From positions 2,459,975-2,523,974 of the forward strand of contig NC_022444.1 in the NCBI RefSeq assembly GCF_000468495.1: 64,000 nucleotides of DNA, given 5' to 3'. This DNA is from Megalodesulfovibrio gigas DSM 1382 = ATCC 19364. GTDB taxonomy: Bacteria > Desulfobacterota > Desulfovibrionia > Desulfovibrionales > Desulfovibrionaceae. The notes beneath the pieces were generated by a model. The model was not told the DNA's origin. It searched no databases and worked only from the letters and a program-made list of their open reading frames with translations. This document shows positions 25,660 to 47,356 of the stretch, piece by piece (position 1 is the stretch's first letter; the number at the start of each line of letters is the position of its first letter). The position numbers and the translations under genes were made by a program.

Positions 25660-25690
25660 GCCCTGTGCCCTCCTTCGCGTTTCAGACTAG

Positions 25691-25708
25691 TCTCAGACTA
25701 GTCTGAGA
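25691..25708. repeat. 18-bp perfect palindrome
   Basis: TCTCAGACTAGTCTGAGA, preceded by another copy of TCAGACTAG at 25682-25690. It lies in the 51-bp gap between the capsid stop and the gp36-like start. Could be an RNA hairpin adjusting capsid versus tail expression, or a binding site. Confidence 0.6.
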
Positions 25709-27038: not shown

Positions 27039-28010
27039 CTAGCCCTCCTTCCCGGTCTGGCCATTCCGACCGGTCCGTGCGCCGGCCTGGGCCTTGGTTT
27101 TTACATAGTTGGCCGGATCAAGCCCCATGGCCTTGCAGATAGCCAGGTCATTGCCGTCCAGCGTTGCCATGGCGGGATCGCCGTTCGTCGGACCTGCGCC
27201 CTGGCCGGCCTGGCTCGCCGCCAGGGTGGCCAGCCCCTTGGGGGTAGCATTCAGCAGCGCTTCCAGGGCGTTCTTGTCCACCTTGCCCAGGGCGATGGCC
27301 GCATCGCGCTGGGCCGGCGTCAACCGGCCATCGGCACAGGCATTGGCCACCAGGGCCTCTACAGCCGAGTGCTGCTGGGCCGATGTCATTGCCGCCAGGG
27401 CGTTCATGGTGCTGGCGTTCTGCTCGGTCAGCAGGCGAACCTGGCCGGCCAAGGACTGCACCTGGACGGAGAGCTGCTCCACGGAGAGCTGCTCCAAGGA
27501 TGCCGGGGCAGCCGATGCAGCGGGGCCGGGCGAAACGGGCGAAACGGGCGGACTGCCCGGCGCGACGCCAGCCGCATTCAGGGCGGGCAATTCCGCAATG
27601 TTCGGGTTGTTCACCAAAGCAACAGAGTGCAGCCGGAGGATGCGCGGCCCTTCATCCGTGGCGAAGGCCGGAGAAAGATACCGATACTCCTTGGAGGCAA
27701 TGGCCGCGGACCCGGCTTCAGTCCATTCCACTTCCGCCGTGATGCCAGCATCCTCCAGCTGGAAATTGCGCAGCCAGCCGGCGGCCCGGCCACCGCTCCA
27801 ACAGGTGGAGTGGTCATAGTCGATGACAATATCCACGCCTTCGGCCTGGACAATGTTCACCAGGGCCTGGGCGTCTCCGGGGGTCAGGTCCCAATACCGG
27901 CCATCGCGCCCCTTGATCTCACCCAGCGGCAGGATCAGCAGCCGGGCTCCGGACTGCACGGCATTGGCTTCCACGGCCAAGCGCACCACGCTGCGATGCA
28001 TAGTCGTCAT
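27039..28010 (-). CDS. Mu gpI-like head protease/scaffold
   Basis: A 323-residue protein of the Mu-like phage I family. The N-terminal protease part has LLILPLGEIKGRDGRYWDLT, then VDIVIDYDHSTCWSGGRAAGW and LSPAFATDEGPRILRLHSVALVNNPN (split here by family blocks). The C-terminal part is a helical scaffold with EQLSVEQLSVQVQSLAGQV. Start ATG 28010 is chosen behind GGAGCATGAG. Near its end lies a GRNGQTG repeat-like tail. Confidence 0.85.
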   Translation of the reverse strand: MTTMHRSVVRLAVEANAVQSGARLLILPLGEIKGRDGRYWDLTPGDAQALVNIVQAEGVDIVIDYDHSTCWSGGRAAGWLRNFQLEDAGITAEVEWTEAGSAAIASKEYRYLSPAFATDEGPRILRLHSVALVNNPNIAELPALNAAGVAPGSPPVSPVSPGPAASAAPASLEQLSVEQLSVQVQSLAGQVRLLTEQNASTMNALAAMTSAQQHSAVEALVANACADGRLTPAQRDAAIALGKVDKNALEALLNATPKGLATLAASQAGQGAGPTNGDPAMATLDGNDLAICKAMGLDPANYVKTKAQAGARTGRNGQTGKEG

Positions 28011-28020
28011 CTCATGCTCC

Positions 28021-28500
28021 TTAGGCACGCGGCCGGCCTGCAGGCCGCGACGCGCTTTCGGTGTTGCTGATTTCGTCCCGGTAGCATTTGAGCCTGGCCA
28101 CCAGCCGTGCCGGCAGGGGCACATTCAGGCAGGCCAGGTGCTCGCAGATGGACAGACTCTCGCTGAGAGCAAGATAGACGATAATAAGATTACGGCAGGT
28201 TACCGGAAATTCCAGACCGATTCCGGCAAGAAACATGGCATCCAATACATGCCCCATGACCACGGCCAGGCCAAAGAGCACGAACTTGCCCGCGCCGTGC
28301 AGCATGCGCCGCCCGGAAAGCGTGCCGGCCGTCCAGGCCCGCCCGAAGCCCAACGCGAAATCCAGGACCAGCAGGGTCACCAGCCCCCAGACAACGGCAT
28401 CCACCGGCCCGACCAGATACGCCCCGGCCGCAGCCAGCGCGCTCTTGACGCCGCAATGGTCCGCGAGCGTCCGCCACTGTTCGATCATGTCACGCACCAT
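28021..28500 (-). CDS. Phage holin
   Basis: A 159-residue membrane protein with three or four hydrophobic segments (AYLVGPVDAVVWGLVTLLVL, KFVLFGLAVVMGHVLDAMFL, NLIIVYLALSESLSI). The pattern LDFALGFGRAWTAGTLSGRR resembles the TcdE/phi29-type holin family. It would form the pores that release the GH19 endolysin. Start could be ATG 28500 or 28488. Confidence 0.72.
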   Translation of the reverse strand: MVRDMIEQWRTLADHCGVKSALAAAGAYLVGPVDAVVWGLVTLLVLDFALGFGRAWTAGTLSGRRMLHGAGKFVLFGLAVVMGHVLDAMFLAGIGLEFPVTCRNLIIVYLALSESLSICEHLACLNVPLPARLVARLKCYRDEISNTESASRPAGRPRA

Positions 28501-28675
28501 GCTGCACCCCTATTGCCCTCACATTGTACCGCTGGTTCAAGAGAACATTTTCACGCATTAGTGAAACAAAGCAACCTAGACGCAATGCACAGTTTGCGTT
28601 GTAATAGATCGGTACAACGCAATCCACTAAAGCGCTTTAGTGTTTCACAAGCATAAAATATGGTAAGGATGTGCC
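28501..28675. promoter_or_regulatory. Divergent late control region with nested dyads
   Basis: This 175-bp gap separates leftward holin/head/tail genes from rightward terminase/portal genes. It holds the perfect palindrome CACTAAAGCGCTTTAGTG (28625-28642), an inverted repeat GCGTTGTA/TACAACGC (28596-28603 and 28613-28620), and a TTAGTGAAAC half-site near 28558 resembling the TTAGTGTTTC right of the palindrome. Likely a bidirectional late promoter with activator or repressor sites. Confidence 0.65.
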
Positions 28676-29167
28676 ATGAAGGACTACAGCAAGGTGCGCA
28701 AGAAGATGCGACAAATGTACGCCGCTGGCAAGAGCATTGATGAGATTGCCGTTCTCTTCGATTTGCAGCCGGCATCAGTGCAGTATCATCGCCGTATCGA
28801 TGCGCGAAACGGCGCAGACTGGGACGCCCTGCGGGTGGAATGCCGGGTGGGGGAGACGGCCACGGAAGAAGCGCATCAGCAGTTCCTGGGCACGCTCTTC
28901 GGCTGCTTTGCTGAAGAACTGCCCAAGCTGCGCGAGATTACGGACGCGGCCAAGCGCCTGGACATCCTGCGCACCTACTCCCGGACCTATTCGGAACTGA
29001 TCCGGGCCGTGCGCACGGATCCCAGGATCGACGTGGGCGAAGTTGTCGCCAAAACCCTGGACCTGCTGGTGGATCAAGCCATCGAAGACGGCCGTGATGA
29101 CCTGGCCCTGTGGCTGCAGGCCAGTCTGGACGCCATCCGGGACAAGGTCCGCAAGGAGTTCGCCTGA
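28676..29167 (+). CDS. Small terminase-like protein (DUF1804 type)
   Basis: A 163-residue protein. Residues 1-40 form an HTH (MYAAGKSIDEIAVLFDLQPA), followed by a helical part with LREITDAAKRLDILRTYSRT. This matches Mu-like gp27/DUF1804 proteins thought to be the small terminase subunit. Its stop overlaps the large-terminase ATG (TGATG). Confidence 0.75.
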   Translation: MKDYSKVRKKMRQMYAAGKSIDEIAVLFDLQPASVQYHRRIDARNGADWDALRVECRVGETATEEAHQQFLGTLFGCFAEELPKLREITDAAKRLDILRTYSRTYSELIRAVRTDPRIDVGEVVAKTLDLLVDQAIEDGRDDLALWLQASLDAIRDKVRKEFA

Positions 29168-30768
29168 TGCCTCCCGCGCCAAAACGTCTGGACCGCAAAC
29201 AGCTGGATCGCGACCTGGCCGCCCTGCGCCAGCGCCTGCAGCGCATGTCCGCCCTGGCCGAAACCGGGCGCGAGGACCGCATCCCGGCGGCCAAGGCAGA
29301 CTTCCGGCTGTTCTGCCAAACCTACCTGCCGCACTATCTGGACCGGCCCTCATCATCCTTTCATCACTGGATTTTCGCCCAGGCCCCATGCTGGGGACAG
29401 GGGGCAAAGCTCTGCATCGCCGCGCCCCGCGGCTATGCCAAGACAACGTATCTGGTGCGGGCCTACTGCCTGTGGCGTCTGGCGCGAGGGGATGCGGCCT
29501 TTCCCGTGCTGCTGCAGGATTCCTCGGAACTTGCCGAGCAGTCCTTGGCCGTCATCAAGGTCGAGTTGGAAGACAATCCCCGCTTGGCTGCAGACTTCCC
29601 GGAGCTGGTGGGGGAAGGCCGGCTCTGGCGGCAGGACAAAATCATCACCGCCTCAGGCGTGCCCGTGGCCGCCCTGGGCTCCGGCAAACGCATCCGCGGC
29701 CTGAACATCAACGGCCTGCGGCCGTCCCTGGTCCTCGCGGATGACCTGGAGAACGATGAAAACGTCCTCTCCAAGACCCAGCGGGACAAGGTCGAAAGCT
29801 GGTTCGTCAAAGCCGTGCTGGAGCTGGGGTTGGCCGACGGCAGCCTGCAGGTGATTTTGGTAGGCACCATGCTCCATGCGGATTGTCTGGTGGCGCGCAT
29901 GCAGCGGCGGCCGGACTTCGAGAGCCACACCTTCAGCGCCGTGGCGCGCATGCCTGAACGCCTGGACCTTTGGGACGAATGGGGCAGGCTGCTGGCCGTG
30001 GACGCCCCGGCGGCAGCGGCCTTCTACAAGGCCCGCCAAGGGGAGATGGACGCAGGCGCGGAAGTCCTCTGGCCGGAGATGGAGCCCTTGGAGCGGCTCA
30101 TGGCCAAGCGCGCCCTTGATCCGCACACCTTCCAGACCGAAAAGCAGAATCAGCCCCTTGATCCGGACTCCCAGGTCTTCCGGACCCTCCATTTCTACGT
30201 GGAGATGCCCAACGCCTGGCGCTTGATCGTCGGGGCGGTGGACCCTGCCCAGGGCCTGATCAAGGGCGACTTCACGGGCATCGTTATCCTGGGGCAGCGG
30301 GACGATCGCAAGGCCCTGGTGCTGGAAGCCGACGTCACCAGGCGCAATCCCATGGCCACCGTGGATCGCGTCATCGAGCTGCAGCGCAAGTGGGGCTGCG
30401 CCCAATGGGCCGTGGAAGACGTGGCCTTCCAGGCCGTCCTGCGGGACATCATTCTGGAAAAATCCCTGGAAGCCGGGGTGCCCGTGCCCGTGCTCGCGGT
30501 CAAGCCCCTCTTTGCCAAGGAAGTCCGCATCCTGTCCCTGCAAGCACCTGTGGCCGCGGGGCAAATCCTCTTCAACCCCCTGCACGGCACCCTGAACCAG
30601 CAGCTCCAGGAATTCCCCCAGGCTGCACACGACGACGGGCCAGACGCCCTGGAGCTGGCTTGGTCCCTTTTACGCCACGCCGGGCAGATCGCCTTCAAGT
30701 CTTCTGGTGGCGGCGGTGGCGGCGGCATCTTTGGCCGGCTCTTTGGCGGCAGGCAGCGCGGATTCTAA
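29167..30768 (+). CDS. Large terminase (Mu gp28-like)
   Basis: A 533-residue packaging motor. ATPase motif AAPRGYAKTTYL at about 85-95, Walker B LVLADDLEND, and a C-terminal nuclease domain with GAVDPAQGLIKGDFTGIV, VEDVAFQAVL and AHDDGPDALELAW carrying the acidic metal ligands. It cuts and packages DNA into the head. The C-terminus is a glycine-rich tail followed by FGRLFGGRQRGF. Start ATG 29167 overlaps the previous stop. Confidence 0.9.
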   Translation: MPPAPKRLDRKQLDRDLAALRQRLQRMSALAETGREDRIPAAKADFRLFCQTYLPHYLDRPSSSFHHWIFAQAPCWGQGAKLCIAAPRGYAKTTYLVRAYCLWRLARGDAAFPVLLQDSSELAEQSLAVIKVELEDNPRLAADFPELVGEGRLWRQDKIITASGVPVAALGSGKRIRGLNINGLRPSLVLADDLENDENVLSKTQRDKVESWFVKAVLELGLADGSLQVILVGTMLHADCLVARMQRRPDFESHTFSAVARMPERLDLWDEWGRLLAVDAPAAAAFYKARQGEMDAGAEVLWPEMEPLERLMAKRALDPHTFQTEKQNQPLDPDSQVFRTLHFYVEMPNAWRLIVGAVDPAQGLIKGDFTGIVILGQRDDRKALVLEADVTRRNPMATVDRVIELQRKWGCAQWAVEDVAFQAVLRDIILEKSLEAGVPVPVLAVKPLFAKEVRILSLQAPVAAGQILFNPLHGTLNQQLQEFPQAAHDDGPDALELAWSLLRHAGQIAFKSSGGGGGGGIFGRLFGGRQRGF

Positions 30769-30786
30769 CACTTCAAGGATATTGAG

Positions 30787-32466
30787 ATGCCTACGTTGTA
30801 CGATCATCGCGGCGTGCCCGTCTCATCGCGGGACCTCAAGGAATCCCAGGCCGAAGCCGTCCGGCGGCGCTCCCGGCTGGGCGGCTCCGCCGGCCTGGAC
30901 ACCTGGACTCCCGCCCGCGGGGCCCTCACGGCCCGGCAGTTGGCCGGCCTGCTGCGGGCCGGCGGCGCCGGGGATGTGGCCGCCCAGGCCAACCTGTTTG
31001 ACGAGATGGAAGAAAAGGATCCCCACATCGGCCACCTGGCCAGCATCCGCAAGCGCGCCGTCTCCGGTCGCAGCTGGCAAATGGATGCCGCGGACGATTC
31101 GCCAAAAGCCGCGGAAATAGCCGGCTTCTGTCAAACGGTCCTGGAAGCCTTGCCCCTGCGCCAGGCCTTCCGCGATGCCCTGGACGCCACGGGCAAGGGC
31201 TTCGCCGCCCTGGAGCTGTACTGGGACGTCTCCGCAGGCCAGGCCGTGCCCACGCGCCTGGAGTTCGTGGAACAGCGGCGCTTTGGCTGGCTCCGCCTTG
31301 GGAATGGGGCCTTGGAATTGGGCCTGGCCGGGGATGGCAGCCTCAGGGAACCCGAGCCCCTGTGGCCCTTCAAGTGGCTGGTGCACCGGTCCCAGGCCCG
31401 CAGCGGCGTGCCCTGGCGCGGTCCCCTGTATCGTACCCTGGCGTGGCTGTATCTCTTCCGCAACTACAACCTCGCCGGCTGGGCGCGCTTTGTGGAAAGC
31501 TACGGCATTCCCACGCGGCTGGGTCGCTATCCTGCCGGTGCCACGGAAACGGAACAGAACACCCTGCTTGCCGCGGCCCAGGCCATCAGCAGCGAGGCCG
31601 CGGTCATCATCCCCCAGGGCATGCAGCTGGAATTGCTGGAAACCAAATTCTCTAGCGCTGCCAAGACCCCGCATGAGGGGTTCCTGGACTGGACCACCCG
31701 CAGCATTTCCATCGCCCTCATTGGCGGCACCCTGACCACAGACACGGCCTCCGGTGGTGGCGGGGCCTATGCCCTGGGCGAGGTGCACAACCAGGTCCGC
31801 TGGGACCTTCAACGCGACGACGCCGAACAGCTCTGCGCCACCCTCAACCGCGATCTTGTCAAGCCCCTGGTGGACCTGAACTTCGGCCCGCAGCCGGCCT
31901 ATCCCACCCTGGCCATTGACGTCCCGGAACCCGCGGACCTCCAGGCCCTGGCCCAGGTCATCGCCACCCTGGGCCAGGCCGGCTATGACGAGATTCCCCT
32001 GTGGTGGATTCGCCAGAAGTTCCGCATCCCCAAGGCCGAAGGCGACGAACCCACCTTGCGCAGCCTGCGCCAGGCCAGCACGCCCGCCGGCCCTGCCGCG
32101 CCGGAGGCCCCGCCCGCCCCCCAGCAGACGCGTGCAGGCGGGTTCCTGCCGTCGCAACTTGCTGCCAACGCAGCACAATCACCAGCCGTCACCGAGGCCG
32201 AGGCCCATGCCGAGGCCACCGTGGAAGCCCTCTCCCGGCAGGTGCAGGAAGAACTGGTCGCCCCGCTCCTCGCCCGGCTCCAGGCCTGCGGCAGCTTCGA
32301 GGAAGCCTTGGCCACGGTCCAGACCGGCTTCGATCACGCCGCCACCGAGGGCTTGGGCCACCGCCTGGCCAGGGCCGGCTTTATTGCCAATCTCTACGGC
32401 CAGCTGGAGGTGCAGGACGGGCAGGCCGGGCAGGACGGGCAGCCAGATGAAGGGGAAGACGCCTGA
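30787..32466 (+). CDS. Portal protein (Mu gp29-like, DUF935)
   Basis: A 559-residue DUF935 portal. Features: LFDEMEEKDPHIGHLASIRK and AVSGRSWQMDA near the N-terminus, NLAGWARFVESYGIPTRLGR and ALGEVHNQVRWDLQRDDAEQ in the core, then a low-complexity C-terminal QDGQAGQDGQPDEG. It forms the dodecameric head vertex for DNA passage. Stop and next start share one base. Confidence 0.9.
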   Translation: MPTLYDHRGVPVSSRDLKESQAEAVRRRSRLGGSAGLDTWTPARGALTARQLAGLLRAGGAGDVAAQANLFDEMEEKDPHIGHLASIRKRAVSGRSWQMDAADDSPKAAEIAGFCQTVLEALPLRQAFRDALDATGKGFAALELYWDVSAGQAVPTRLEFVEQRRFGWLRLGNGALELGLAGDGSLREPEPLWPFKWLVHRSQARSGVPWRGPLYRTLAWLYLFRNYNLAGWARFVESYGIPTRLGRYPAGATETEQNTLLAAAQAISSEAAVIIPQGMQLELLETKFSSAAKTPHEGFLDWTTRSISIALIGGTLTTDTASGGGGAYALGEVHNQVRWDLQRDDAEQLCATLNRDLVKPLVDLNFGPQPAYPTLAIDVPEPADLQALAQVIATLGQAGYDEIPLWWIRQKFRIPKAEGDEPTLRSLRQASTPAGPAAPEAPPAPQQTRAGGFLPSQLAANAAQSPAVTEAEAHAEATVEALSRQVQEELVAPLLARLQACGSFEEALATVQTGFDHAATEGLGHRLARAGFIANLYGQLEVQDGQAGQDGQPDEGEDA

Positions 32467-33677
32467 TGCCTGCGGAACCAATGGACATCCGCTTCGATGT
32501 CGATCCCCAGGAGGCCATCGACCACTTCGGCGGCAAGGGGCTGGCCCCGTCGGACCATTATTCAGACGTCTGGGGAGAACAGCATGCAAAGGACTTCACC
32601 GTCGCCAAGATGCTGGACCTGGATCTGCTCAAGAAGACGCAAGACTCACTGGAAGACGCCCTGCGCGAAGGCAAAACCTTCGATGACTGGCGCAAAGAGA
32701 TTGAGCCCCAAATGCGCAAGGCCGGCTGGTGGGGCAAGAAGGAAATCATCGACCCCAAAACCGGCAAGAAGCGCACCGTCCAGCTGGGCAGCCCGCGCCG
32801 CCTGGAGCTGATCTTCCGGCAGAACATGCTGGACGCCTACAACGCCGGCCGCCGCCAGCGCTTGCAGGACATGGCCGACCGCCGCCCCTGGTGGCGCTAC
32901 GAAAGCGTCCTGGATGACCGCACCCGCCCGCAGCATCGCGCCTGGGACGGCATGCTCTTGCGCCATGACCACCCCTGGTGGAAGACCCATTTTCCGCCCA
33001 ACGCCTACCTCTGCCGCTGCACCGTCAGCTCCATGAGTGACGGCAAGCGCCAGCGCCGTGGCCTTGCGCCCACGCCTGATGACCAGATTCCCGGCTACGG
33101 CGAAACCCGCAAATGGACCAACCCCCGCAACGGGGAAGTCTTCGACGTCCCCTGGGGTCAGGATCCCGGCTTCGACCACATGCCCGGCGATCCCGCCCGC
33201 ATGGGCGATTCCCTGGCCGCCAAGATGGCCGCCGCCCCCCAGGGGCTGGCCAAAGAGGTGGCCGAAAGCCTGCTCAAGGGCGAGGCCTTTCAGGAGTTTT
33301 ACAACAACCCCGTGCCCGGCGTGGAGATGCTGGCCGGCGTGGTGCCCGAGCCCGTGCAAGAAGCCATCGGCGCCCAGGGGCCAGGGGCCTTCCTCTCCGG
33401 AGACACCCTCCAGAAGAACAAGGACCATCACCCCGAACTGGGCATGGGAGACTACGCCCGGATCCCGGAGCTGCTCTCCACTCCGGACCTGGTCATCCAG
33501 GACGGGGAACAAACCGTGGTCTGCCTCAAGAAAGACGGCGAATGGTGGCTGGCCGCCGTCAAGGCCACCAAGACCGGCCAGCGCAACTACGTGACCAGCT
33601 TTCGCCGTACCCGCTGGGCAGACATTCAACGCCGCCTGACCAACGGCGAAGTGCTCTTGGGCGAGGTGGCGGAATGA
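32466..33677 (+). CDS. Mu gpF-like minor head protein with C-terminal PBECR-like domain
   Basis: A 403-residue protein. Residues about 1-190 match the Mu gpF/SPP1 gp7 family: RRLELIFRQNMLDAYNAGR, DDRTRPQHRAWDGM, FPPNAYLCRCTV. The C-terminal 110 residues (KNKDHHPELGMGDY, DGEWWLAAVKATKTGQRNYV, TSFRRTRWADIQRRL) resemble phage barnase-EndoU-ColicinE5/D-RelE-like (PBECR) nuclease domains fused to gpF proteins. Such domains may be injected with DNA. The nuclease call is by motif look only. Confidence 0.8.
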   Translation: MPAEPMDIRFDVDPQEAIDHFGGKGLAPSDHYSDVWGEQHAKDFTVAKMLDLDLLKKTQDSLEDALREGKTFDDWRKEIEPQMRKAGWWGKKEIIDPKTGKKRTVQLGSPRRLELIFRQNMLDAYNAGRRQRLQDMADRRPWWRYESVLDDRTRPQHRAWDGMLLRHDHPWWKTHFPPNAYLCRCTVSSMSDGKRQRRGLAPTPDDQIPGYGETRKWTNPRNGEVFDVPWGQDPGFDHMPGDPARMGDSLAAKMAAAPQGLAKEVAESLLKGEAFQEFYNNPVPGVEMLAGVVPEPVQEAIGAQGPGAFLSGDTLQKNKDHHPELGMGDYARIPELLSTPDLVIQDGEQTVVCLKKDGEWWLAAVKATKTGQRNYVTSFRRTRWADIQRRLTNGEVLLGEVAE

Positions 33678-33982
33678 GGCGGCATAAAAATGTGATATAT
33701 CGGGATGATACTTCGGTGGTCATATTGACCACCGAAGTATCATGCTTGATTTGCAACACATTTCCGACTGTTGGAAGAAAAGGTGTGACATTACAGCGAG
33801 ATGCTTCCGTCGTCAATTTGGGGACGGAAGCATCTCGCTGTGATTGCTGCACATTCTCAAAGGGAAATCAAAAAGGCACAGCATTACAGGCAGATGAAGG
33901 AGGCCCCAATATGGTGTCACCTTCATCGTGCTGCAATTGCTGCATATATCCGCCCTGCAATATGGGGTGGGCAAGGCCATCC
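33674..33982 (+). CDS. Possible repeat peptide ORF, coding status uncertain
   Basis: From ATG 33674, coupled to the gpF stop, about 103 codons run through the hairpin repeats before the frame continues as an open but antisense overlap of the repressor gene. The translation has three 31-32 residue units: RDDTSVVILTTEVSCLIC, QRDASVVNLGTEASRCDC and QADEGGPNMVSPSSCCNC. The repeats keep a multiple-of-three period and the cysteines, but both strands are open because of the palindromes. The end given is where unit 3 fades, not a stop codon. Confidence 0.3.
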
Positions 33983-34189: not shown

Positions 34190-35152
34190 CTATCCAAACG
34201 CCCGCCCAAGCCACACCACGCGCCCCACAATCCAGGCCGCAGACCTGTCCTTGGGCAGCATCGTTTGGGTGTCCGTGGGCCGGCTTGCCGCCCACAAGGC
34301 AATGCCGCTGGGCATGCGCAACAGCGTGCGCACCAGCAGTTCCCCAGCCACGGCCACCACATACACCTTGCCACTGGCGGGCTCCACCTGCCCCTGGTCA
34401 AAGACCAGCAAGTCATTGTTCACAATCACATTGTCCATCTCGTTGTTCGTCACCCGCAGGCAGGCCATCCGATCGGGATCGCCAAGGGCCTGCATTGCTT
34501 CCCTATGAAATGCAACCGAAGCCTCGCCGTGATTGATCAATGCACCATGCTCATCCAGGCGGTGCCCGACCAACCGAAGCCGAACCAAAGGCAACCCAGA
34601 GTCAGGGGCTTGCACATCTCGAACCCCATGGGCGGAAGCGCCCGCCGGGGTGATGGCAATGTGTGGGGAGGACGGCCCATAGTAGAGCCAGTCTATAGAA
34701 ACATTAAAATCCTCAGCGATTTTAAAGAACCAGCTAGATGGAAGAGACTTCTTTTCAATTGCCCCGCTGACACTTGCAGGCTTGATCCCCAGAGCTCGCG
34801 CAAGCTCGCTGTAGTTTTTAGCATCAGAAGCCCGCATGAGACGCTCTATTCTTCCTGGCAAGTCAGCAGGTTGCCTGTTCGCCAACTCCTTGGAGAAAGG
34901 AGCACCGAGGGGCTGCGGATCGTCCATGGAGGATTCAGCAGTACGGCCAAAATACAGCCAATCCAGGGAAACATTTTTTTGAGAAGCTATTTTCAGTGGC
35001 CATGTTGGTGGAATCGTCTCGCTGTCGACGGCGCGTTTTACAGATTGAGGCGTTATTTCAAGCGCGCGCGCCAAGTCTGACATGGTATTTCCGTGGATCG
35101 ACTCCAACATCCTTGCGTATAAATCCTTAAAATTCACAGTCTGTTCTGTCAT
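34190..35152 (-). CDS. Prophage repressor, two CI-type HTH domains plus S24-like domain
   Basis: A 320-residue repressor. Two homologous CI-type HTH modules lie at about 12-70 (MSDLARALEITPQSVKRAV) and 100-160 (YSELARALGIKPASVSGAI), each ending in NVS(L/I)DWLY(F/Y)G. Residues 190-320 resemble the S24/LexA dimerisation domain, but the usual GDSM is RVTNNEMD (Glu238 in place of Ser) and the Lys is replaced in ELLVRTLLR, so self-cleavage seems lost. It is divergent from the early genes, as a lysogeny repressor should be. Confidence 0.85.
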   Translation of the reverse strand: MTEQTVNFKDLYARMLESIHGNTMSDLARALEITPQSVKRAVDSETIPPTWPLKIASQKNVSLDWLYFGRTAESSMDDPQPLGAPFSKELANRQPADLPGRIERLMRASDAKNYSELARALGIKPASVSGAIEKKSLPSSWFFKIAEDFNVSIDWLYYGPSSPHIAITPAGASAHGVRDVQAPDSGLPLVRLRLVGHRLDEHGALINHGEASVAFHREAMQALGDPDRMACLRVTNNEMDNVIVNNDLLVFDQGQVEPASGKVYVVAVAGELLVRTLLRMPSGIALWAASRPTDTQTMLPKDRSAAWIVGRVVWLGRAFG

Positions 35153-35562: not shown

Positions 35563-36321
35563 ATGTCTTTCTTCTCCCGTTTCACCACCCCCAAGCCCCA
35601 GCCCGAACCCAACGCCACCCCCAACGCGGAACCCGTCGCCTCCTTGCAGTCCCTGTCCCCGGCCATCGCCGCGGGGCAGCCCCTGCTCCAGGGTCTGGGC
35701 GAAATCAAGTACCTGGAACGCGATGGCGAATTCTGGTTCACCGGCGACCAGCTCGGCCAGTTGCTCGGGTACTCGGATCCTCACAGAAACATTGCCAAGT
35801 TGCACAGCCGCCACGTTCAACAATTACAGGAGCATACTTCGGTGGTCAAATTGACCACCGAAGCAGGCACCCGCAATACCAGGGTTTTTTCTCAGGTTGG
35901 TGCGCTGTACCTGATCATGAAGTCCGACACGGAAAAAGCCAATGAAGTCAGCATGGTTTTCGCCCAGCTCCTCAAGCGGCTGTATGACGGCAAGCTGCAG
36001 GAACACATCGCCTCCCTGCAGGGCGAGATCGAGCTGTTGAAGGTGCAACACCGGGAGGACAAGGAAGCCGCCGTGCGCCTGGCCCTTGGCCTGCATCCCA
36101 GCCGTCGCAAGCACATCCTGCCCGCGGTGCGCTACCGGCGCATGGGCCTGAAGAACCGGGAGATCGGCAAGCTGCTGGACGAGCACGACCGTACCGTCGG
36201 TTCCGCCCTCTCCACCGCCCGCAAGTTGGGCCTGCTGGAGCCCGCCACCCGCCGTGCCCCGGTCATCCGCATGCCCAACCCCTCCCCCAAAACCTCGCGC
36301 CCCAGCGGCAAGGCTGCCTAG
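35563..36321 (+). CDS. Bro-N-type antirepressor-like protein
   Basis: A 252-residue protein. Residues about 48-140 look like a Bro-N domain: IKYLERDGEFWFTGDQLGQL, then HTSVVKLTTEAG and VFSQVGALYLIMKSDTEKAN. The C-terminal part is helical with an HTH-like NREIGKLLDEHDRTVGSAL. Bro-N proteins often act as antirepressors or KilA-type regulators. Within it, ATTACAG and a 12-bp hairpin (35834-35863 region) match the repeats at 33.7 kb. Confidence 0.7.
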   Translation: MSFFSRFTTPKPQPEPNATPNAEPVASLQSLSPAIAAGQPLLQGLGEIKYLERDGEFWFTGDQLGQLLGYSDPHRNIAKLHSRHVQQLQEHTSVVKLTTEAGTRNTRVFSQVGALYLIMKSDTEKANEVSMVFAQLLKRLYDGKLQEHIASLQGEIELLKVQHREDKEAAVRLALGLHPSRRKHILPAVRYRRMGLKNREIGKLLDEHDRTVGSALSTARKLGLLEPATRRAPVIRMPNPSPKTSRPSGKAA

Positions 36322-37201: not shown

Positions 37202-37804
37202 ATGGAACCCCATGCCGACACCGCCCTGCCTGAACTGCCACCCTCCGAGGCCGTGCTCATCGCGTCCACAGAAGTGGACATGGACGGCCGTCCCCTGCGG
37301 GTCATGACCCTGGACTGTCTGGCCGACGCCCTGGAGCTGCATGACAGGCACGATCCGCGCGCCTGGTTCGAGTTCCGCTGCCGGCAGTTCGGGTTTGCCT
37401 GCGGCCGGGACTGGATCGACAGCAGCCCGGACGATCCCCTCATCGGGCTCTCCATGGCCAAGGTGCTGGCGGTGCTGGAGCGCAAAAGCCCGCGCGGCAT
37501 GCTGGTGCATCAGGCCATCATCGCCCATGAACAGCGGCTGTGGGCCTTGCAGCGCATGAGTCTGGTCACGGAATTCGACCCGGACTGCGGCGCGGGTGGG
37601 TTCTGCCTGGGGACGGTGCCGAACTACATCGCCGATGTCGTTGCTGACCAGCCCGACCAGCCCGACCGGCCCGACCAGGCCCCGGAAGACGGCAGCACCA
37701 CCCTGCGCGTCACCGTCCGGCTGCATCCCCTCACGGATCCTACCGACGCCCCCGGCTCGCTCTCCACCGCGTCCTCCACCTCCACCACGCAGGACGCGGC
37801 CTGA
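37202..37804 (+). CDS. Hypothetical early prophage protein
   Basis: A 200-residue protein from ATG 37202 behind AAAGGAGACG. Contains RPLRVMTLDCLADALELHD and RAWFEFRCRQFGFACGRDWI, then a repetitive DQPDQPDRPDQ and a Thr/Ser-rich end. Same frame as the stop-less HTH gene upstream. The stop overlaps the next ATG. Confidence 0.5.
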   Translation: MEPHADTALPELPPSEAVLIASTEVDMDGRPLRVMTLDCLADALELHDRHDPRAWFEFRCRQFGFACGRDWIDSSPDDPLIGLSMAKVLAVLERKSPRGMLVHQAIIAHEQRLWALQRMSLVTEFDPDCGAGGFCLGTVPNYIADVVADQPDQPDRPDQAPEDGSTTLRVTVRLHPLTDPTDAPGSLSTASSTSTTQDAA

Positions 37805-42705: not shown

Positions 42706-42741
42706 GGGGCGCTTACGCAGGCCCATCTGCGTAAGCGCCCC
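42706..42741. terminator. Strong 15-bp hairpin
   Basis: GGGGCGCTTACGCAG (42706-42720), loop GCCCAT, CTGCGTAAGCGCCCC (42727-42741). A run of seven A precedes it, so it has a U tract on the leftward strand; rightward it lacks one and may only attenuate. Confidence 0.6.
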
Positions 42742-47214: not shown

Positions 47215-47356
47215 GCGTTCGCTTTTTATAAAAATGACCACAAAATGAGGCCAATTTGGCCTCATTTTTATAAAAATGGTTTTTTGGCGAAAAAAATTTT
47301 ATTCCCACGATATGACTGAACTTTCCCCCCTCTCCCCCAGATTCCCTTTTTATAAT
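47201..47356. repeat. Right-edge AT-rich repeats
   Basis: TTTTTATAGA (47201), TTTTTATAAA (47223), TTTTTATAAA (47265) and TTTTTATAAT (47347) recur here, with spacings of 22, 42 and 82 bp. They match the two copies at the left prophage edge and suggest multiple transposase sites at the right end. Confidence 0.5.
47236..47269 (+). terminator. Terminator at the right prophage edge
   Basis: ATGAGGCCAA (47245-47254) pairs with TTGGCCTCAT (47256-47265) followed by TTTT; upstream AAAA makes it bidirectional. Confidence 0.7.

Follow-up and report, generated by a model that had tools for sequence, protein, structure and literature searches.

A palindrome within the coding region of phage antirepressor genes and its extra copies next to a prophage repressor gene

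The analysed window, a 64,000-nt stretch of the Megalodesulfovibrio gigas DSM 1382 = ATCC 19364 genome (contig NC_022444.1, positions 2,459,975 to 2,523,974), contains a Mu-like prophage. The TerL, portal and MuF genes read up to an array of three tandem repeats, which is followed by a CI/S24 repressor gene on the other strand, the Bro-N antirepressor gene, and MuA/MuB-type genes. The head genes are split, as the protease gene reads left while TerL, portal and MuF read right, an unusual order for a Mu-like phage. The locations of the features are summarized in the table.

Features of the window (positions are those of the 64,000-nt stretch).
Position	Strand	Feature	Properties
27039-33677		head genes	protease reads left; TerL, portal and MuF read right
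32466-33677	+	MuF-like minor head gene	ends just before the array
33684-33776		array unit U1	palindrome 33705-33743 (18 bp + 3 + 18 bp), 26/27 identical to the Bro-N in-gene palindrome
33777-33869		array unit U2	palindrome 33793-33841 (19-bp perfect arms around 11 nt), core TCCGTCGTCAA shared with the in-gene palindrome of another phage's Bro-N (locus L016)
33870-33962		array unit U3	imperfect dyad 33893-33927
34190-35152	-	CI/S24-type repressor gene	3' end facing the array
35563-36321	+	Bro-N antirepressor gene	PF02498, E 3.4e-12; PHROG "anti-repressor Ant"
35671-36009	+	modelled Bro-N domain	AlphaFold2 pLDDT 88.8, pTM 0.78; predicted helices 25-31 and 37-47 (HTH), strands 56-63 and 66-74 (wing)
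35837-35863	+	in-gene palindrome	CTTCGGTGGTCAA-A-TTGACCACCGAAG, 27 bp with one central base; codons TSVVKLTTE, residues 56-64 of the modelled domain; DSSP strand 56-63, first strand of the wing hairpin
25682-25706		other perfect inverted repeat	12-bp arms; a doubled TCAGACTAGTCT
42706-42741		other perfect inverted repeat	15-bp arms
47242-47268		other perfect inverted repeat	13-bp arms; looks like a terminator

The three units are spaced by 93 bp, and their ungapped identities are 53/93 (U1-U2), 54/93 (U2-U3) and 40/93 (U1-U3). The observation made in the preliminary description, that three repeats with long hairpins and paired changes between the copies lie between the head genes and the repressor and are echoed in the Bro-N gene, is confirmed, although the first perfect stem is 18 bp rather than 17 bp long. 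U1 is the longest perfect inverted repeat of the window (loop up to 6), and GTNGTCANNNTGACNAC occurs twice in the window against none in 100 shuffles. The RNA folding z-scores are -8.5, -9.8 and -2.8 for U1, U2 and U3, respectively, and -5.7 for the in-gene site. The ATTACAG motif shared 5' of the palindrome is also present in the Bro-N gene of L016. The proposed reading of the repeats as 31-codon peptide units holds only in one frame, and the ORF that contains them also runs out of frame through MuF and is not evidence of a gene. No copies were found elsewhere in the same genome beyond the Bro-N echo, and none in 98 relatives; blastn and tblastn searches of INPHARED with the repeat array gave no match.

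Following the Bro-N echo led to a more general feature. In IMG/VR, the degenerate palindrome TCNGTNGTCANNTTGACNACNGA was found in five to six independent antirepressor genes of unrelated phages. The wobble bases left free by this pattern were complementary for the V1-T1 codon pair in every one of them, with four different base pairs. A scan for the peptide S-V-V-[NK]-x-T-T-[DE] with all wobbles free showed consistently symmetric wobbles in the antirepressor genes and mixed ones elsewhere. A broader viral pattern was dominated by chance VVxxTT codons, but the antirepressor hits stood out by their symmetry, and further Bro-N and P22_AR_N genes were added, again all symmetric at that pair. An exact wide pattern searched in genome contigs gave one perfect 16-bp palindrome, CTAGGTCTGTCGTCAAATTGACGACAGACCTAG, in Streptomyces geranii (locus L068, 925-947), which is apparently intergenic and shares the core with the Bro-N palindrome, probably by chance.

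We then selected genes by protein alone. In 67 distinct Bro-N genes, perfect inverted repeats with arms of 7 bp or more fall at codon -12.5 from the NESGLY anchor in 17 genes against 0.35 expected from within-gene synonymous shuffles, with a smaller group at -15.5 (5 against 0.35), while the rest of the gene does not exceed chance in total. The sequences are largely unrelated to each other. Named phages of Rhizobium, Staphylococcus, Pseudomonas, E. coli (N15), Gordonia, Acetobacter, Lactococcus and Klebsiella have the palindrome at or within a few codons of the same place, with different DNA and different amino acids, whereas Mycobacterium phage IronMan and Vibrio phage X29 lack a clear one. 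In 49 P22_AR_N genes, 27 such repeats against 1.75 expected are located at -12, including a 26-bp perfect palindrome, with mirrored amino-acid pairs such as N-C-F-D/I-E-T-V, N-C-V-H/M-N-T-V and N-C-G-H/I-T-T-V. The ant gene of P22 itself has AACTATGTCGATATCGACATGGTT at this place (12 of 13 pairs), which resembles none of the annotated C2, Arc or Mnt operators of this phage; no site was found in P22 rha.

When pairs were counted against synonymous-codon shuffles over about 600 possible centres, with every other centre in the same genes as the control, the site was the single maximum in each of five families: P22_AR_N (z 14.6), Bro-N (13.8), Firmicute Bro-N (13.2), Phage_pRha (18.1) and ORF6N (14.9, with 9.3 of 10 pairs), the last including chromosomal genes. 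The background standard deviation of z is 1.6-2.1 rather than 1 because related genes are not independent, so z is a rank and not a probability. The retrieved sets are the best hits to the queries rather than a random sample, and some queries (three alignments and two tblastn queries) contained consensus-like family sequences that we composed, although all counts rest on retrieved genes. Only a weak signal was obtained for DinD-type Bro-N (z 4.8 with 10 genes), and AntA and KilA-N yielded too few loci or no usable anchor. In two ORF6N genes (loci L612 and L620) and one Bro-N gene (L015), the palindromic wing segment is duplicated in tandem and in frame, giving two different palindromes or palindrome-like segments in one gene, for example LRCQIGTSN-LRSKFATS.

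The mismatch pattern fits a dyad in duplex DNA rather than an RNA hairpin. Among pairs that involve a wobble position in four families, Watson-Crick pairs are observed 780 times against 397 expected (1.97 times expectation), G-T 57 against 152 (0.38), and A-C 68 against 183 (0.37); in ORF6N the corresponding values are 175 against 66 (2.66), 3 against 24 (0.13) and 2 against 15 (0.13). An RNA stem on either strand would spare one of the two mismatch types. The P22_AR_N genes alone spare G-T slightly (0.49 versus 0.29), so RNA is not excluded there. The central pair, which cannot form in a hairpin, is also symmetric in Bro-N (37 against 17.7) and P22_AR_N (32 against 19.6), and close relatives differ by mirrored substitutions.

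In the AlphaFold2 model, the Bro-N domain adopts a predicted winged-helix-like fold, with the palindrome encoding the first strand of the wing. The most probable solved matches found by Foldseek are DdrC, a dimeric DNA-binding protein (TM 0.51-0.54), and MarR-type regulators with DNA, but all are weak and none is better than E 0.07. The distance of the palindrome from the start codon varies while its place in the domain does not, and we infer that it is tied to the protein element. Partial Mantel tests on genes with a real palindrome placed many of the residues that co-vary most strongly, beyond overall protein similarity, with the palindrome of the same gene at -10 to -20 (around the predicted recognition helix) and at +6 to +14 (wing) in all four families tested, but these tests control phylogeny only in part and the signal is no more than suggestive. 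For Bro-N, this restriction was made because a subfamily split confounded the unrestricted analysis.

Most phages have only the in-gene copy. Extra copies near the gene were found in about 5 of 83 loci, and clear ones in two of the 13 long records examined; they mostly lie 5' of the gene (record G397/L212, loci L250 and L473). In L473 (480-1339), a truncated second ant copy ends shortly after its palindrome, an exact copy of the downstream ant palindrome, and runs into a terminator-like stem and unrelated sequence; another variant palindrome lies further upstream. In G397 (L307/L308), a third relative of this phage's Bro-N palindrome is followed by a T-run (37495-37521) in a region without an identified coding context. 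Two ORF6N genes have leader arrays of four to five different palindromes (L616, 1150-1480, and L592, 1200-1420), comparable to the window array. Members of these arrays resemble the in-gene palindromes of other ORF6N genes and have no homology to their own gene beyond the palindrome. The window array has the same logic, with U1 corresponding to its own Bro-N gene and U2 close to that of L016.

The comparative analysis thus demonstrates a selected palindrome of variable sequence and near-perfect symmetry, with selection on synonymous sites, at a fixed codon position in five antirepressor-type families, and the window array as extra copies of it, while its covariation with the HTH and wing residues is indicated rather than established. 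Binding and autoregulation are inferred from sequence alone. We suggest, with a probability of roughly 45%, that a dimer of the encoded protein, or of a close sibling, could bind the palindrome as its own intragenic operator and limit its own transcription. In this view, the three units, like the ORF6N leader arrays, would be extra operators or decoys, U1 for the Bro-N protein of this prophage, and U2 and U3 for related alleles. The array would help to keep the prophage's own antirepressor, and perhaps that of an incoming relative, in check next to the repressor gene. This tentative model has to accommodate the scarcity of extra copies, array members that often match palindromes of other genes rather than of their own, the lack of a clear palindrome in some antirepressors, and window hairpins that are longer than a usual operator, with outer stems that could suit RNA.

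The interpretation offered in the preliminary description is supported in part. Of the possibilities it listed, operators and copies of an antirepressor segment behaving like an in-gene palindromic element are both close to the comparative data, whereas a structured RNA array is disfavoured. That description rested on one phage, while the feature is present across phages of many hosts and in chromosomal ORF6N genes. A plain decayed Bro-N gene without conserved pairing, the outcome set beforehand as a refutation, was not what we found.

Among the alternatives, the least unlikely is a recombination or diversification site, where symmetric DNA (cruciform, template switching, cassette exchange) makes the wing hypervariable and arrays are scars or donor cassettes. 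The very variable sequence, the in-frame tandem duplications, the short copies in leaders and the truncated ant copy in L473 are consistent with it. However, wobble transitions, which would accumulate first in decaying palindromes, are the most depleted mismatches, so symmetry is maintained; central pairs that no hairpin uses are symmetric; and the leader copies in ORF6N arrays lack further homology to the gene.

It is less likely that the dyad is the operator of another dimeric regulator (phage repressor, Cro, Mnt/Arc-like) that silences the antirepressor gene. Antirepressors must be silent in lysogens, the signature is that of duplex DNA, and P22 ant is annotated as being under Arc/Mnt control. 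On the other hand, the P22 ant palindrome is unlike the annotated operators, and most whole prophages have no further copies, where repressor operators would recur in the immunity region, the window array being the nearest exception. Moreover, the palindrome is fixed to the wing codons in five families with different neighbours, also in chromosomal ORF6N genes.

Still less likely is an RNA hairpin or antisense system like P1 c4 or P22 sar, in which array RNAs would pair with the identical, hence complementary, hairpin in antirepressor mRNA. U1 and U2 fold strongly as RNA, a palindrome copy is automatically its own antisense, and P22_AR_N genes tolerate G-T a little better. However, G-T mismatches are as depleted as A-C over the four families and in ORF6N, the search of Rfam gave one hit far below its gathering score, and no clear promoter was found at the array. 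An antisense-direction intrinsic terminator is very improbable, since a T-run follows the stem on the antisense strand only in canonical Bro-N genes with D-E-K codons, including three such stems in G397, and is absent from the prophage's own Bro-N gene, from L016 and from P22_AR_N examples such as L444.

No prior description of this palindrome was found in the open-access literature, to which our search was limited. Autogenous or intragenic operators of phage and bacterial regulators also have dyad symmetry in duplex DNA near or in the gene of a wHTH regulator, but here the position is locked to the wing codons, the sequence is free, five families share it, and binding is inferred. In P22 immI (Arc/Mnt/sar) and P1 c4, which likewise control antirepressor genes in an immunity setting, the sites or RNAs lie at or before the start of ant, whereas this palindrome is inside the coding region and unlike the Arc/Mnt operators. 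Rickettsia palindromic elements are in-frame palindromic segments in coding DNA with extra copies outside; the palindrome described here is not one sequence spread through unrelated genes and is confined to antirepressor-type genes and their vicinity. The coding palindromes in mitochondria of Nematomorpha (PMC6649704) are inverted repeats maintained together with protein function, but they are up to 284 bp long and lie in mitochondrial genes, in contrast to about 27 bp of variable sequence at one site of DNA-binding proteins. REP elements (PMC3733652) are also short palindromes, but the palindrome studied here is not high-copy or extragenic across the genome.

A further reading, which is not excluded but is less likely than not, is that antirepressor-type genes carry their own operator inside the codons for the DNA-reading wing, so that protein specificity and target site would be inherited, swapped and diversified as one short DNA segment. 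Arrays of such segments beside repressors or in leaders would then be collections of sites for own and foreign family members, an immunity-like record.

Antirepressors help to decide when prophages wake, and what their N-terminal domains read is not known to us. A palindrome of conserved position and free sequence in their genes, P22 ant included, gives a concrete predicted target for each such protein from its gene alone. It would make their DNA specificity, autoregulation and cross-talk between phages directly testable, and it is a rare case where amino-acid changes follow DNA symmetry.
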